Source: Sulfitobacter maritimus (GTDB taxonomy: Bacteria > Pseudomonadota > Alphaproteobacteria > Rhodobacterales > Rhodobacteraceae). From it: a DNA stretch of 64,000 nucleotides. The position numbers were made by a program, and so were the translations under genes. The DNA lies in contig NZ_JABVBB010000034.1 of the NCBI RefSeq assembly GCF_013346665.1, positions 372,001 to 436,000 of the forward strand, read 5' to 3'. The notes under the pieces are model-generated. The model was given only the letters and a program-made list of their open reading frames with translations. It was not told where the DNA came from and made no database searches. Positions 35,017 through 40,010 of this stretch are shown here, piece by piece (the stretch's first letter is position 1; each line of letters begins with the position of its first letter).

Positions 35017-35337
35017 ATGCGGATATACGGGCTGAAAAACTGCGACAGTTGTCGCAAGGCAAAGAAGGCCTTGCCGGAGGCTGAATTGGTTGACGTGCGC
35101 GAGGTTGGTGTGTCGGATGAGCTTTTGGCACGCGCCCATGCGCAGTTTGGCGACGCGCTTCTCAACACCCGGTCGACCACGTGGCGAAACCTGGATGATG
35201 TGGATCGCGCTCTGCCACCATTGGCGCTGCTCAAGGCCCATCCCGCGGTGATGAAACGGCCATTTATCGAAGCGGGGGATCAGCTTTTTATCGGTTGGAA
35301 CAAGGGTATAGAGCAAGAAGTTCAGGCGTTACTTTAA
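35017..35337 (+). CDS. ArsC/Spx-family protein (YffB-like)
   Basis: The 106-residue thioredoxin-fold protein has NCDSCRKAKKAL, a CXXC at the position of the ArsC/Spx active site, and MKRPFIEAGDQLFIGWN, the C-terminal Arg-Pro signature of the family. It is shorter than arsenate reductase and more like the YffB group, whose substrate is uncertain. The stop overlaps that of the convergent doxX gene (TTAA). Confidence 0.8.
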   Translation: MRIYGLKNCDSCRKAKKALPEAELVDVREVGVSDELLARAHAQFGDALLNTRSTTWRNLDDVDRALPPLALLKAHPAVMKRPFIEAGDQLFIGWNKGIEQEVQALL

Positions 35338-35876
35338 CCGAAGCGTTTGCGGATCGCGTGGTCCAAGGACAGGGGGCCGGCCCCTTTGATGACGAGCAGC
35401 AGGAGCAGGAAGATCCAAAGCGCTCGCTGGTCGAGGATAAGCGCGTCCGGGAAACGATCAAACCAAGCGCCTAGGCTCGCTTCTTGCCCATGGCCGTAGA
35501 CATCAGTCAAAGATTGCAGGGTGATGAAGCCGATGATCCCTAAGGCAGACAGGCGCGTCAGCAGGCCGATGACAATGAACACTGGCAAGAGGAACTCTGT
35601 CATAGTGCCCGCGACAACGATGACCCGATGAAACAGCCCGAGCGCGTTGATGTCATAGCCGACAGCTTCAAAGGTGCGGGGAAAAATCTGCGCATAGGCG
35701 CCCGCCGCTGGCTCAAGTACGCCTAACAGACCGTCGCCCAGTTTGGTCAGGCCGGAGTTCAGGTAATAGACCAACAATACGCCGCCAAAGACCAAACGTG
35801 CCAAAGTTGGAAGGAGCCATTCTGCAGATTCGATGCGGTTTGCGAGGCTGCGGTAAAGTTCGGCGTATCGGGTCAT
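35334..35876 (-). CDS. DoxX-family membrane protein of the bufferin-like operon
   Basis: The 180-residue protein starts at 35876 and has four hydrophobic helices typical of DoxX ([70 protein letters not shown]). DoxX-like proteins often accompany MNIO/DUF2063 pairs in RiPP operons of this type, perhaps serving in copper or redox handling at the membrane; the role is not established from sequence. It overlaps the upstream DUF2063 gene by four bases (ATGA). Confidence 0.85.
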
Positions 35877-36631
35877 GACGCATCCTCCAGTGACAGGGTG
35901 CAAAAGACACCGGTGCGAAGCGCGAGGGTCAGCGCCGCGCCAAGATCGAATGCATTGTCCTGTGCGAGTGCCGCTTCATGTGCTGCGCCAAAGGGGCAGC
36001 CATCGGCTAGTTGCTCCAGCCAAACAGCCATGCCAGCAGGCATAAGATGCGGGGCCGGGTCAAACTCCGGACGGGTGATAACAATGTCCTGCGCTTCGGG
36101 CCGGGGTTTGGGAGCGTCAGCGGTGAAGTTGTACCGCCAGATGTCATAGAGCGGCCAGCGCGACCGCAAAATACGGGTTGCGGGTGCGCGTGTGAGGCGC
36201 GCGTTCAGCAATGCCTCCGGCGCAATACGTTGCAAACTTGTGGGGTCCAGCGGGGCGCTATCGGCCGCGTGGTAGGACGCGCGCATGGCCAAATCAAGCC
36301 GCGCCGCGTCTGGCAGGTACCCCAGATGTGCAAGCGGGGTGAAGGTTTTGAGAAACGCCGGGAACTCCGCACCGTAGTGCATCATAACAGGTGATTTCGG
36401 CGGATGCGCGCGGACAAAGAGTGGGGCCAAATCGGCAAACGCCGCTTTGCCGATCAGTTTGCACACCAAGGGAAAGGCCGTCTCTAGCGCCGCGATCAGC
36501 GCGTGGGTGACGTTGTTGCGGTACACACCGTAACGCGCTCCCACCGGGCGGCCCGCCCCATCCCGTAGCCCTTGCGGGACCGGCTGCGCAGGGTCGAGCA
36601 GACCCGCGCGAAAGCTACGTTGAACGGTCAC
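35873..36631 (-). CDS. bufC: DUF2063 partner protein of the MNIO enzyme (BufC/MbnC-like)
   Basis: The 252-residue protein carries the DUF2063 domain at its N-terminus ([59 protein letters not shown]). These are helices homologous to MbnC-type partners, which bind precursor peptides and present them to the MNIO enzyme. The C-terminal half is less conserved. Its start overlaps the MNIO gene by four bases, and its end overlaps doxX by four, so equal, coupled production is likely. Confidence 0.87.
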
Positions 36632-37473
36632 ACCAGCACCTGTTCGGCGCGTTCCGCTTCGGCCCGCAACACCGGCCAGTCTGGCACGTCATTGTCCCAC
36701 TCAACCAGCACCGGCTTCGGCCCGGTCTGAGCCAAAGTGTAGCGCAGCAATTCCCAGACCGGATCGACAACCGGTCTGCCGTGGCTGTCGATCAGCAACA
36801 GCGCACCATGCTCATCCGTATCGGTGTCATGGCCGCCGACGTGAATCTCGCCCACATGGTCGGTGGGGAAAGCGTCGATATAGGCCTGTGGTGACAGGCC
36901 AAGGTTGGTGGCGGAGATAAAGACGTTGTTCACGTCCAGCAAAAGCCCGCAGCCGCTACGCCCCACCAATTCGGCAAGGAAGTCGGTTTCAGACAGGGTG
37001 GAGCTGTCGAACGCGAGGTAGCTAGAGGGGTTTTCGAGCAGCATACGGCGGCCCAAAACCTGCTGCACCTCATCAATATGCTGCGCCACTTGCGTAAGGG
37101 TCTGTTCGGTATAAGGCAGCGGCAGCAGGTCGCTGAGGTATTCCGCGCAGTGGGTGGACCACGCGAGATGTTCGGAAAAGGAGGCAGGCTGCACGCGGTC
37201 GCACAGACGTTTCAGCCGCGTAAGATGGTCTTGATCCAGAGGCTCTTCGCCGCCGATCGAGAGACCCACACCATGCACCGATAGCGCGAAATCTTCCTGC
37301 AATGCACTGAGTTGCGCGAGCGGGCGACCACCGTCGCCCATGTAGTTTTCGGCGTGAACCTCAACCCAGCGGACCGGGCCGGGATCTGCCAAGAGCGCCT
37401 CGAAATGCTGGGCCTTGAACCCGACTCCGGGAGCATTTGGCAGGTTGTTTATCTGGGGGGCGTCGTCGCGCAT
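36628..37473 (-). CDS. bufB: DUF692 multinuclear non-haem iron oxidase (MNIO; BufB)
   Basis: The 281-residue TIM-barrel protein belongs to DUF692, the MbnB-related family of iron-dependent oxidases that convert cysteines of ribosomal peptides into oxazolone/thioamide, thiooxazole or other groups. Candidate iron ligands lie in GVGFKAQHF (His23), [47 protein letters not shown] and IHVGGHD, all conserved family positions. It lies 62 bases after the precursor gene and overlaps its partner gene, which makes substrate assignment strong. Confidence 0.92.
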
Positions 37474-37535
37474 GGGGCCTCCGACAGGTTGAGGGGCAAA
37501 GTCCGGGCGACAGGTGCCGCCCGGCGGGCTACGGA

Positions 37536-37838
37536 TTAAGCGGGCAGGTCGCGGTCAAGCGGCTCCAGTGAGCCTTCGCGATCGGTGCCATCTGCCATTT
37601 CCGGCAGGTCAATCTCGGTGCAGGTGCCAGCATCGACCAAGGTCCACGCATTGCCTTGGTAATCCTTCACAGACGTGCCTGCGCAAGTGGTGCCGGGACC
37701 GGCGGCGCAGTCGTTTTGGCCAGCAAGCGAGACGCCGTAGCATTTCTCTTTTGTGGCGGCCTGTGCGGTAGTGGCGTGGCTCGACATCGCTGCGGCAACG
37801 GCGCCGGCTATGGCGGCTGTCTTGAGCGTATGGGACAT
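37536..37838 (-). CDS. bufA: DUF2282 bufferin-type RiPP precursor
   Basis: From ATG 37838, preceded by AGGAGG, the 100-residue precursor has a Sec-type signal peptide ([16 protein letters not shown], cleavage about residue 27). A core follows with four cysteines at 33, 44, 52 and 73, in [24 protein letters not shown] and DAGTC. This is the DUF2282 pattern of bufferins, peptides whose signal peptide doubles as leader, whose cysteines are modified by the MNIO/DUF2063 pair, and which bind copper in the periplasm. An acidic tail of 27 residues ([13 protein letters not shown]) follows the last Cys. Confidence 0.88.
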
Positions 37839-38008
37839 GATGAATATTCCTCCTCTTGAGTTTGCGTGGTGCATGACCACTAAAGCAAGAGCTTACATCA
37901 CAAGCCATTCACGAGCGAGTGTGTCACGTTCCCGTCAGAAAATGCGGCGAAATTCGCCCAAAAGGGCGACCCTCCCGCGCTGGAACGTCAGTTTTGTTAC
38001 AAAAGTCC

Positions 38009-38048
38009 CCCGGCAAGCTGTGCAGATAGAGTTAGCGCAGCCTGCCGG
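38009..38048 (-). terminator. Intrinsic terminator of thrS
   Basis: Read on the minus strand, CCGGCAGGCTGCGC pairs with GCACAGCTTGCCGG with two mismatches across an 11-base loop, and GGGGACTTTTG follows. It begins 13 bases after the thrS stop. Confidence 0.65.
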
Positions 38049-38060
38049 AGTGATGTTTTG

Positions 38061-40010
38061 TTACCGACGCAGGTCAGGTGGTGTCGATTCCTGCGCCAGT
38101 TCGGTGGTGAGCGTGTCGAGCGGCTGCACCGAAGTCTGTTTCTGGCCCAAACGGCGGACAGAAACGGTGCGCTCTTCGACCTCGCGCGCGCCAACGGCGA
38201 GGATCACCGGCACTTTGCCGACCGAATGTTCGCGCACCTTGTAGTTGATCTTCTCGTTGCGCATGTCGGCCTCGGCCCGCACGCCAGCGGCATTCAGGGT
38301 CTCGACGACTTCAGCCACATAATCATCGGCCTCGGAGGTGATGGAGGCGACGACAACCTGGCGGGGGGCGAGCCAGAAGGGCAACTTACCTGCGTGCTCT
38401 TCGATCAGGATGCCAATGAAGCGCTCGAAAGACCCCAGCGTCGCACGGTGCAGCATAACCGGGCGGTGCTTGCCGCCATCCGCGCCGATATAGGTCGCGT
38501 CCAGCCGTTCGGGCAGCACGAAGTCCACCTGATGGGTGCCGCACTGCCAGTCACGGCCAATCGCGTCAGTCAGGACGAACTCCAACTTCGGGCCGTAGAA
38601 GGCGCCTTCGCCGGGGTTAAGTTCCGGTTCGATCCCTGCGGCGCGTGTGGCCGACAGCAGCGCGGCCTCGGCCTTGTCCCATACCTCATCCGACCCGGAT
38701 CGCTTTTCAGGGCGGTCGGAGAATTTCACTTTAAAGTTCTCAAAGCCGAGGTCGCGGTAGATCTCGCTCAAGAATTCGATGAACTTCGCGGTTTCGGATT
38801 CAATCTGGTCTTCAGCGCAGAAGATATGCCCGTCGTCTTGGGTAAAGCCGCGCACCCGCATAATGCCATGCAATGCGCCCGAAGGCTCATAGCGGTTGCA
38901 CGAGCCAAATTCGGCCATGCGCAGCGGCAGGTCGCGGTAGGATTTCAGACCTTGATTGAAAATCTGCACGTGGCAGGGGCAGTTCATCGGCTTGAGCGCG
39001 TTCACTGCTTTTTCGCGGGCGTGTTCCTCGTCCACTTCGACGATGAACATGTGGTCTTGATACTTCTCCCAGTGGCCGGAGGCTTCCCACAGTTTGCGGT
39101 CCACGACCTGCGGGGTGTTCACTTCAACATAGCCGCCCTTGCGTTGCTGGCGGCGCATGTAGTCTTGCAACTGGGTGTAGATCGACCAACCGTTTGGGTG
39201 CCAGAAAATCTGGCCGGGGGCTTCTTCCTGCATGTGGAACAGGTCCATCTCGCGCCCCAGTTTGCGGTGGTCGCGCTTGGCGGCTTCTTCGAGCATGTTA
39301 AGATGCGCGCGCAGCTTTTCCTTGCCGGTGAAGGCCACGCCGTAGATGCGTTGCAGCATGGCGCGGTCGCTGTCGCCACGCCAATAGGCCCCGGCGATGG
39401 ACATCAGCTTGAAGGCATCGCCCGGCACTTGGCCAGTGTGTTGCAGGTGCGGGCCACGGCAGAGGTCTTGCCAGTCGCCGTGCCAATACATACGCAGCGG
39501 CTCGTCGCCGGGGATCGCGTTAATCAGCTCGACCTTATAGGGCTCGCCGTTGTCTTCGTAATGTTTGATCGCGCGCTCGCGGTCCCAGACCTCGGTGCGG
39601 ACGGGATCGCGTTTGTTGATGATCTCTTTCATCTTCTTTTCGATGAGCCCGAGGTCTTCGGGGGTGAAGGGCTCTTTGCGGTCGAAGTCGTAGTACCAGC
39701 CGTCCTTGATCACCGGGCCGATGGTAACCTTGGTGTCGGGCCAAATTTCCTGCACGGCACGGGCCATGATGTGGGCGAGGTCGTGGCGCACCAGTTCGTT
39801 GGCCTGCTCTTCGTCGGCCATGGTGTGGATCGCGATGTTGGCGTCGGCTTCGATCGGCCATGCCAGATCGTAATGCGCGCCGTTCACGGTGGCGCTGATG
39901 GCCTTTTTGCCCAGCGATTTAGAGATGTCGGCAGCCACTTCGCCTGCGGTGATACCGGCGTCATATTGGCGGCTGTTGCCATCGGGAAGGGTGAGGGAGA
40001 TTTGGGCCAT
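38061..40010 (-). CDS. thrS: Threonyl-tRNA synthetase
   Basis: The 649-residue class II synthetase charges tRNA-Thr. It has an N-terminal TGS domain ([20 protein letters not shown]), an editing domain with [11 protein letters not shown] (the HXXXH element), and a catalytic core with zinc-binding [11 protein letters not shown] and motif 2 [20 protein letters not shown]. The anticodon-binding domain at the end carries [19 protein letters not shown]. Complete length. Confidence 0.97.

Follow-up and report, generated by a model that had tools for sequence, protein, structure and literature searches.

A Buf1-type bufferin operon of a Sulfitobacter species and its conserved, SigF-unlike promoter element

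The operon and its four gene products

The window (the whole stretch of DNA analysed, 64,000 nucleotides of Sulfitobacter maritimus) carries four genes on its minus strand at 35334-37838, all present where the original prediction had placed them: bufA, the precursor gene (37536..37838); bufB, encoding a MNIO enzyme (36628..37473); bufC, encoding its DUF2063 partner (35873..36631); and bufD, encoding a DoxX-family membrane protein (35334..35876). A ribosome-binding-site-like AGGAGG (37849..37854, minus strand) precedes bufA, and 62 bases separate bufA from bufB. Four-base ATGA overlaps had been predicted for the last three genes. This holds for bufC and bufD, but bufB and bufC overlap by GTGA, since the DUF2063 gene starts with GTG. 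The layout equals the bufferin core of precursor, MNIO, DUF2063 and DoxX (PMC12452194; papers are cited by PMC number, each for the excerpts of it that were available). One MNIO match and one DUF2282 match were detected in the window genome (G000; 3.79 Mb, 38 contigs). In this Sulfitobacter species, the four genes make up a full Buf1-type bufferin operon, and chance is ruled out by domain scores and synteny. Bufferins of this kind are already known and the operon is an ordinary Buf1 family member; its control is the new part. An ArsC-family gene (35017-35337, plus strand) is convergent with the DoxX gene, and their stop codons overlap by four bases (35334-35337).

A comparison of the precursor with DUF2282 and of the enzyme with MNIO families had been proposed as a check on the original prediction; both matched, the enzyme above the cut-off of the BufB model. 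BufA (P0001, 100 aa) matches Pfam DUF2282 over residues 30-78 (1.4e-23) and contains the four predicted cysteines (Cys 33, 44, 52 and 73); exactly four were found in 77/77 precursors recognised at 80 named loci. In Buf1 precursors, the central cysteines are the targets of post-translational modification and the outer two form a disulphide (PMC12452194, section 14). The Cys44-Cys52 stretch (37683..37709, minus strand), whose pattern recurs in 63/77 precursors, is thus expected to hold the thiooxazole sites. Residues 1-27 (37758..37838, minus strand) were judged by eye to be a Sec signal peptide, with a basic start, an Ala-rich hydrophobic core and the ending TTAQA (AQA-A), a pattern kept across 78 precursors. 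The Sec signal reportedly doubles as the leader in bufferins. The C-terminal tail RxGSLExLxRDLP (residues 87-99; 37542..37580, minus strand) falls outside the Pfam match, and R87, G89, L91, L94, R96, D97 and P99 are 94-100% conserved in 78 roseobacter precursors. This near-invariant tail might act as an additional, lineage-specific signal for recognition or maturation. A structure model of the precursor was poor (pLDDT 46) and too low for use. Tandem DUF2282 precursor genes occur at one locus (L024, G007:C18, near 1068-1358 and 1411-1701) and also in G100:C45.

BufB (P0002) matches Pfam MbnB_TglH_ChrH at 2.8e-104 and scores 375.8 bits against the NCBIfam equivalog model NF050167 (MNIO_BufB, 'MNIO family bufferin maturase'; cut-off 310), which, together with the layout of the operon, bears out the predicted bufferin identity. 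The HvfB, ApyH, MbnB and ChrH models reached at most 235.4 bits, all under their own cut-offs. HvfB was the runner-up, and the operon does resemble the captophorins (HvfABC/oxazolin and fontiphorin) in its MNIO with DUF2063 partner, Cys-rich precursor and copper link (PMC13097082). However, captophorin precursors have EGKCG repeats, and P0002 stays below the HvfB cut-off (235.4 of 360). N175, D242 and H244 are essential in HvfB (PMC13419390); their BufB counterparts are N183, assigned through the 3bww alignment, and D229 and H231, assigned by motif, all conserved in at least 97.5% of 81 MNIOs.

BufC (P0003) matches Pfam DUF2063 (5e-23), and its 252 aa compare with the 250-260 residues of most PME-type 1 partners (PMC12452194, section 18). 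Searches of the PDB gave no match at E<=1 with the BufC sequence and a single unrelated match (E 1.1) with a profile. Its AlphaFold2 model (pLDDT 91.6) had three matches only at E<=0.001, namely chain A of TglHI (8hi7, 8hci), which is TglI (PMC12452194), and NGO1945 (3dee), with fold agreement extending over the length of BufC. In its modelled structure, BufC is a DUF2063 plus RRE partner of PME-type 1 with the predicted fold of known MNIO partners. The BufC alignment A1 holds 20 of 22 references, drawn as every second member of a 44-member family. BufD (P0004) passes the Pfam DoxX cut-off (1e-05; 26.5 bits, cut-off 23.6); in Buf1 clusters a DoxX gene is common without being required. BufC and the DoxX protein both fall under the cut-offs of the HvfC (38.4, cut-off 142) and HvfX (23.6, cut-off 80) models, which would fit another subfamily.

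Distribution and genomic context

DUF2282 was found in 106/149 family genomes and MNIO in 58/58 genus genomes sampled. In one genus genome (G154), the sole MNIO match is only 43% identical (G154:C185:4942-5712) and perhaps belongs to another cluster type. The order thrS-bufA-bufB-bufC-bufD-ArsC/Spx recurs in the best 80 named loci, which come from a wide range of roseobacter genera. Over 81 loci (these 80 and the window), thrS was found in 80, DoxX in 78, the precursor in 72 and the ArsC-like gene in 72; families were formed by simple similarity clustering within about 6 kb, which misses divergent members, and the DUF2063 family clustered in only 44/81. Most of the neighbour families were named by visual inspection. 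Bufferins appear here as a largely fixed, syntenic trait over many roseobacter genera, and from this gene order the operon looks vertically inherited rather than mobile. In line with the original prediction, which saw no copper regulator or ECF sigma gene nearby, no regulator family recurs beside the operon in the 80 related loci plus the window, and a LysR-type family occurs at 6 loci, roughly 3 kb off the operon. In 40/81 loci, the opposite strand encodes a small protein, predicted by eye to be a membrane protein, in most cases in the interval from bufD to the ArsC-like gene; the window lacks it.

Proposed function

By analogy with characterised homologues, from which the modification chemistry, export and copper binding are transferred, a copper role is likely. 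BufA would be synthesised with a Sec signal, and BufB, as an iron-dependent MNIO guided by the DUF2063/RRE partner BufC, would convert Cys44 and Cys52, the central pair, into thiooxazoles by oxidation; the outer pair would form a disulphide. The modified peptide would be exported and would chelate excess periplasmic copper, with some helper role presumed for the DoxX protein. Alternatively, a genuine bufferin operon might serve another metal or envelope stress (Cr, Cd, Au, Hg or oxidative). SigF controls both Caulobacter buf operons and was studied via chromium and cadmium (PMC3511200), gold and MerC-linked bufferins have been discussed (PMC12452194), and the recurrent neighbours at the 80 loci include no recognised copper gene. 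This alternative appears unlikely to us, however, as copper induces both Caulobacter buf operons in all tested conditions (PMC8224329) and the thiooxazole peptides of homologous systems bind copper (PMC12452194, PMC13097082).

A conserved element upstream of bufA

The original prediction had left the control of the operon open. A conserved promoter element unlike that of SigF, found here, answers this question in part. The element, a putative activator site of 33 bp (TNACR-N4-YGTGA-N2-CAC-N5-YGTGA-N-TRG; 37905..37937, minus strand), was recognised by its conservation in relatives. Its anchor, [CT]GTG-N3-CAC, lies 83-98 bases before bufA in 30/30 fetched genus upstreams, flanked by further conserved columns of TRACNNNNNYGTGANNCACNNNNNCGTGANTRG. 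Allowing up to three mismatches in the window genome yields a single site, the one at bufA, and likewise a single match for the backward control. With at most one mismatch, exactly one site was found in 57/58 genus genomes and none by the backward control in all 58; G154 is the only genus genome without the element. All 57 sites lie upstream of MNIO (27 placed by coordinates, at a distance of 441-498). It is this promoter element, conserved, unlike that of SigF and single-copy in almost all genus genomes under stringent matching, that merits follow-up.

The element extends beyond the genus. Of the upstreams of 76 named loci, 67 fit the element with four mismatches or fewer, and the same sequences in reverse score 5 to 10 (of the 80 loci, L094, L105 and L164 were left out for want of a recognised precursor and L118 of an upstream; at L024 the upstream of the first tandem precursor was taken). 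With a refined profile, 119/136 upstreams beat the best of 2720 mononucleotide-shuffled sequences and 17/136 lack the element; these 136 combine the 76 with loci L003-L062, of which L033 is the window itself, and are redundant. In the 149 family genomes, 78 sites were found with at most two mismatches, 72 of them within 400 bp upstream of DUF2282, vs 6 sites for the backward control; three genomes with a two-mismatch site have no DUF2282. Outside the family, the element was found with at most one mismatch in 0/380 alphaproteobacterial genomes, and 3 of the 5 family genomes within that draw carry it. A second element-like site with one mismatch lies just downstream of the DUF2282 match in one genome (G063:C9:6219-6251). 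A search of the genus with the half element CTGACR-N5-GTGACNCAC (at most one mismatch) gave, among the matches listed, extra matches beyond bufA, two of them perfect (G180:C52, G196:C342) and a few of them sequences that recur in several genomes; backward controls match too. Potentially, the regulator of the element may have a wider regulon of weaker sites.

The position of the element relative to a -10 box is equally constrained. In 60 distinct upstreams, obtained from 70 element-bearing named loci by removing those 70% or more alike, TANNNT starts at columns 44-46 in 43/60, while other offsets average 0.8 and reach 3 at most. Information per non-anchor element column averages 0.93 bits vs 0.21 in the flanks; the element columns were used in choosing the sites, the TANNNT box was not. 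An extra TNACR half-site, not part of the profile, lies at -19 to -15 in these upstreams and gives the five-half-site form TNACR-N5-TNACR-N4-YGTGA-N2-CAC-N5-YGTGA-N-TRG. In the window, the outer half-site is not clear, and the box position, 20 nt past the element, is taken by TTTAGT after TGC (37879..37884, minus strand), which is an extended -10 and departs from the strict TANNNT. Element-bearing promoters have no conserved -35, as would be expected of activator-dependent promoters, and the finding of no sigma70 promoter in a scan of 35250-38150 is in keeping with a poor -35. Judged from the DNA pattern, a dedicated activator bound to the 33-bp element just upstream of this sigma70-type -10 box probably switches the operon on. 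Taken together, we assign a probability of roughly 0.86 to the reading that this is a Buf1 bufferin operon for a BufBC-modified, exported copper chelator, controlled by a roseobacter activator at the 33-bp element and not by SigF/NrsF. Among the open-licence papers listed, none treats roseobacter bufferin control, which leaves an impression that it is not in print; PMC12452194 does not contain the word 'promoter'.

SigF, CopR/CusR and the identity of the regulator

In Caulobacter, CC3254-CC3257 form a Buf1 bufferin operon of the same four genes, likewise ordered DUF2282, DUF692 (MNIO), DUF2063 and DoxX, and SigF recognises the consensus GTAACC-N16-CGAA (PMC3511200). However, sigF and nrsF (CC3253, CC3252) are adjacent there, whereas the NrsF profile has no match in the window genome and the promoter element is a different one. 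The Caulobacter consensus had no match with up to two mismatches in 36591-38873 of the window; across the window, such matches number 42 vs 36 expected. With at most one mismatch and spacings of 15-17, no site was found in 260 bp at L033. A SigF-type promoter before bufA in the window was therefore rejected, as the bufA upstream region holds no match.

A related explanation takes the element itself to be a -35/-10 promoter recognised by a non-SigF ECF sigma factor. Buf operons with ECF regulators are known (PMC3511200, PMC12452194) and SigF-type operons occur within the same family. We nevertheless regard this as quite improbable: the element is long and multi-part, a separate TANNNT box follows at a fixed distance, and GTAACC-N15-17-CGAA (at most one mismatch) occurs within 260 bp in no element locus of L003-L062.

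The half-sites point to another class of regulator. CTGACR-n5-GTNA, which in the first unit of the window reads CTGACG-n5-GTGA, resembles both the Pseudomonas aeruginosa CopR consensus CTGACAn5GTAAT and, in its TNAC-N6-GTNA spacing, the TGAC-N6-GTCA core of the Escherichia coli CusR box, and the CusR regulon is very restricted (PMC11195947). In addition, the extra TNACR half-site, located 10 bp upstream, points to tandem binding, and CusRS-family matches were reported from roseobacters (PMC10141476). The element might thus belong to a CopR/CusR-type two-component response regulator that senses periplasmic copper. Yet the element is multi-part, and the heavy-metal regulator model TIGR01387 passes its cut-off in 0/149 genomes. 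Its near-matches in 45 genomes do not track the element (24/68 vs 21/81, p 0.28). In the window genome, the best match (262.7 bits) stays under the cut-off of 279.2, adjoins a DegP-like protease gene and has no such box in its own upstream region. We consider a CopR/CusR-type regulator possible, if rather doubtful; as a candidate, the TIGR01387 type was not supported, its distribution not following that of the element. This best match of the window genome (L193, G000:C28:75290-75943) lies between a divergent gene for a DegP-like protease and a gene for a histidine kinase (named by eye), a neighbourhood suggesting envelope stress.

The distribution of NrsF speaks for a dedicated activator in place of SigF. 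NrsF was matched in 22/149 family genomes, 21 over the cut-off. Among the 106 DUF2282 carriers, 68 have the element (at most two mismatches, located on the strand of DUF2282 and no more than 400 bp upstream of it), 17 have an NrsF match, none has both and 21 have neither (Fisher 1.5e-9 for the exclusion, a value that ignores shared ancestry). In 12 of the 17 NrsF carriers, NrsF lies on the contig of DUF2282, within about 3 kb, and in 5 on another contig. Within the 60 loci L003-L062, sites like the Caulobacter consensus precede bufA in L004, L005, L006, L012 and L013, and at L003 an ECF sigma factor is the divergent neighbour. A tree of MNIO sequences (34 of 35 rows, L019 being dropped because no MNIO was read; 15/31 inner branches weak) places six of seven SigF-type loci, a label given only to loci without the element, on one side of a 100/100 branch, and the seventh, L012, groups with element loci. 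From the near-exclusion of element and NrsF together with this tree, a regulatory replacement inside the family, with at least one exception, fits best; judged from these sequence patterns, control in roseobacters probably falls to a dedicated activator and not to SigF. Somewhat more tentatively, we lean towards a scenario in which the bufferin operon of roseobacters either dropped out of the SigF/NrsF regulon or was never part of it, and is served by a single-operon activator at a five-half-site element about 20 nt before the -10, with the RDLP tail maybe a signal. A precise, testable DNA element shows possible SigF-independent switching of a bufferin operon and is itself a bait for its regulator, and the near-exclusion with NrsF makes regulatory replacement within one bacterial family directly testable.

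Several genomes and loci depart from a strict division. G129, one of the 17 NrsF carriers, has an NrsF match below the cut-off with two stops, and the element by the looser profile (L022, score 24.2). Some of the 21 genomes with neither, e.g. G137 (L027), also have the element by that profile. The RDLP tail is missing in the SigF-type loci L003-L006 and L013 and present in the SigF-type loci L011 and L012. At the element loci L008, L016 and L061, a loose SigF-like match lies 174-227 bases upstream as well.
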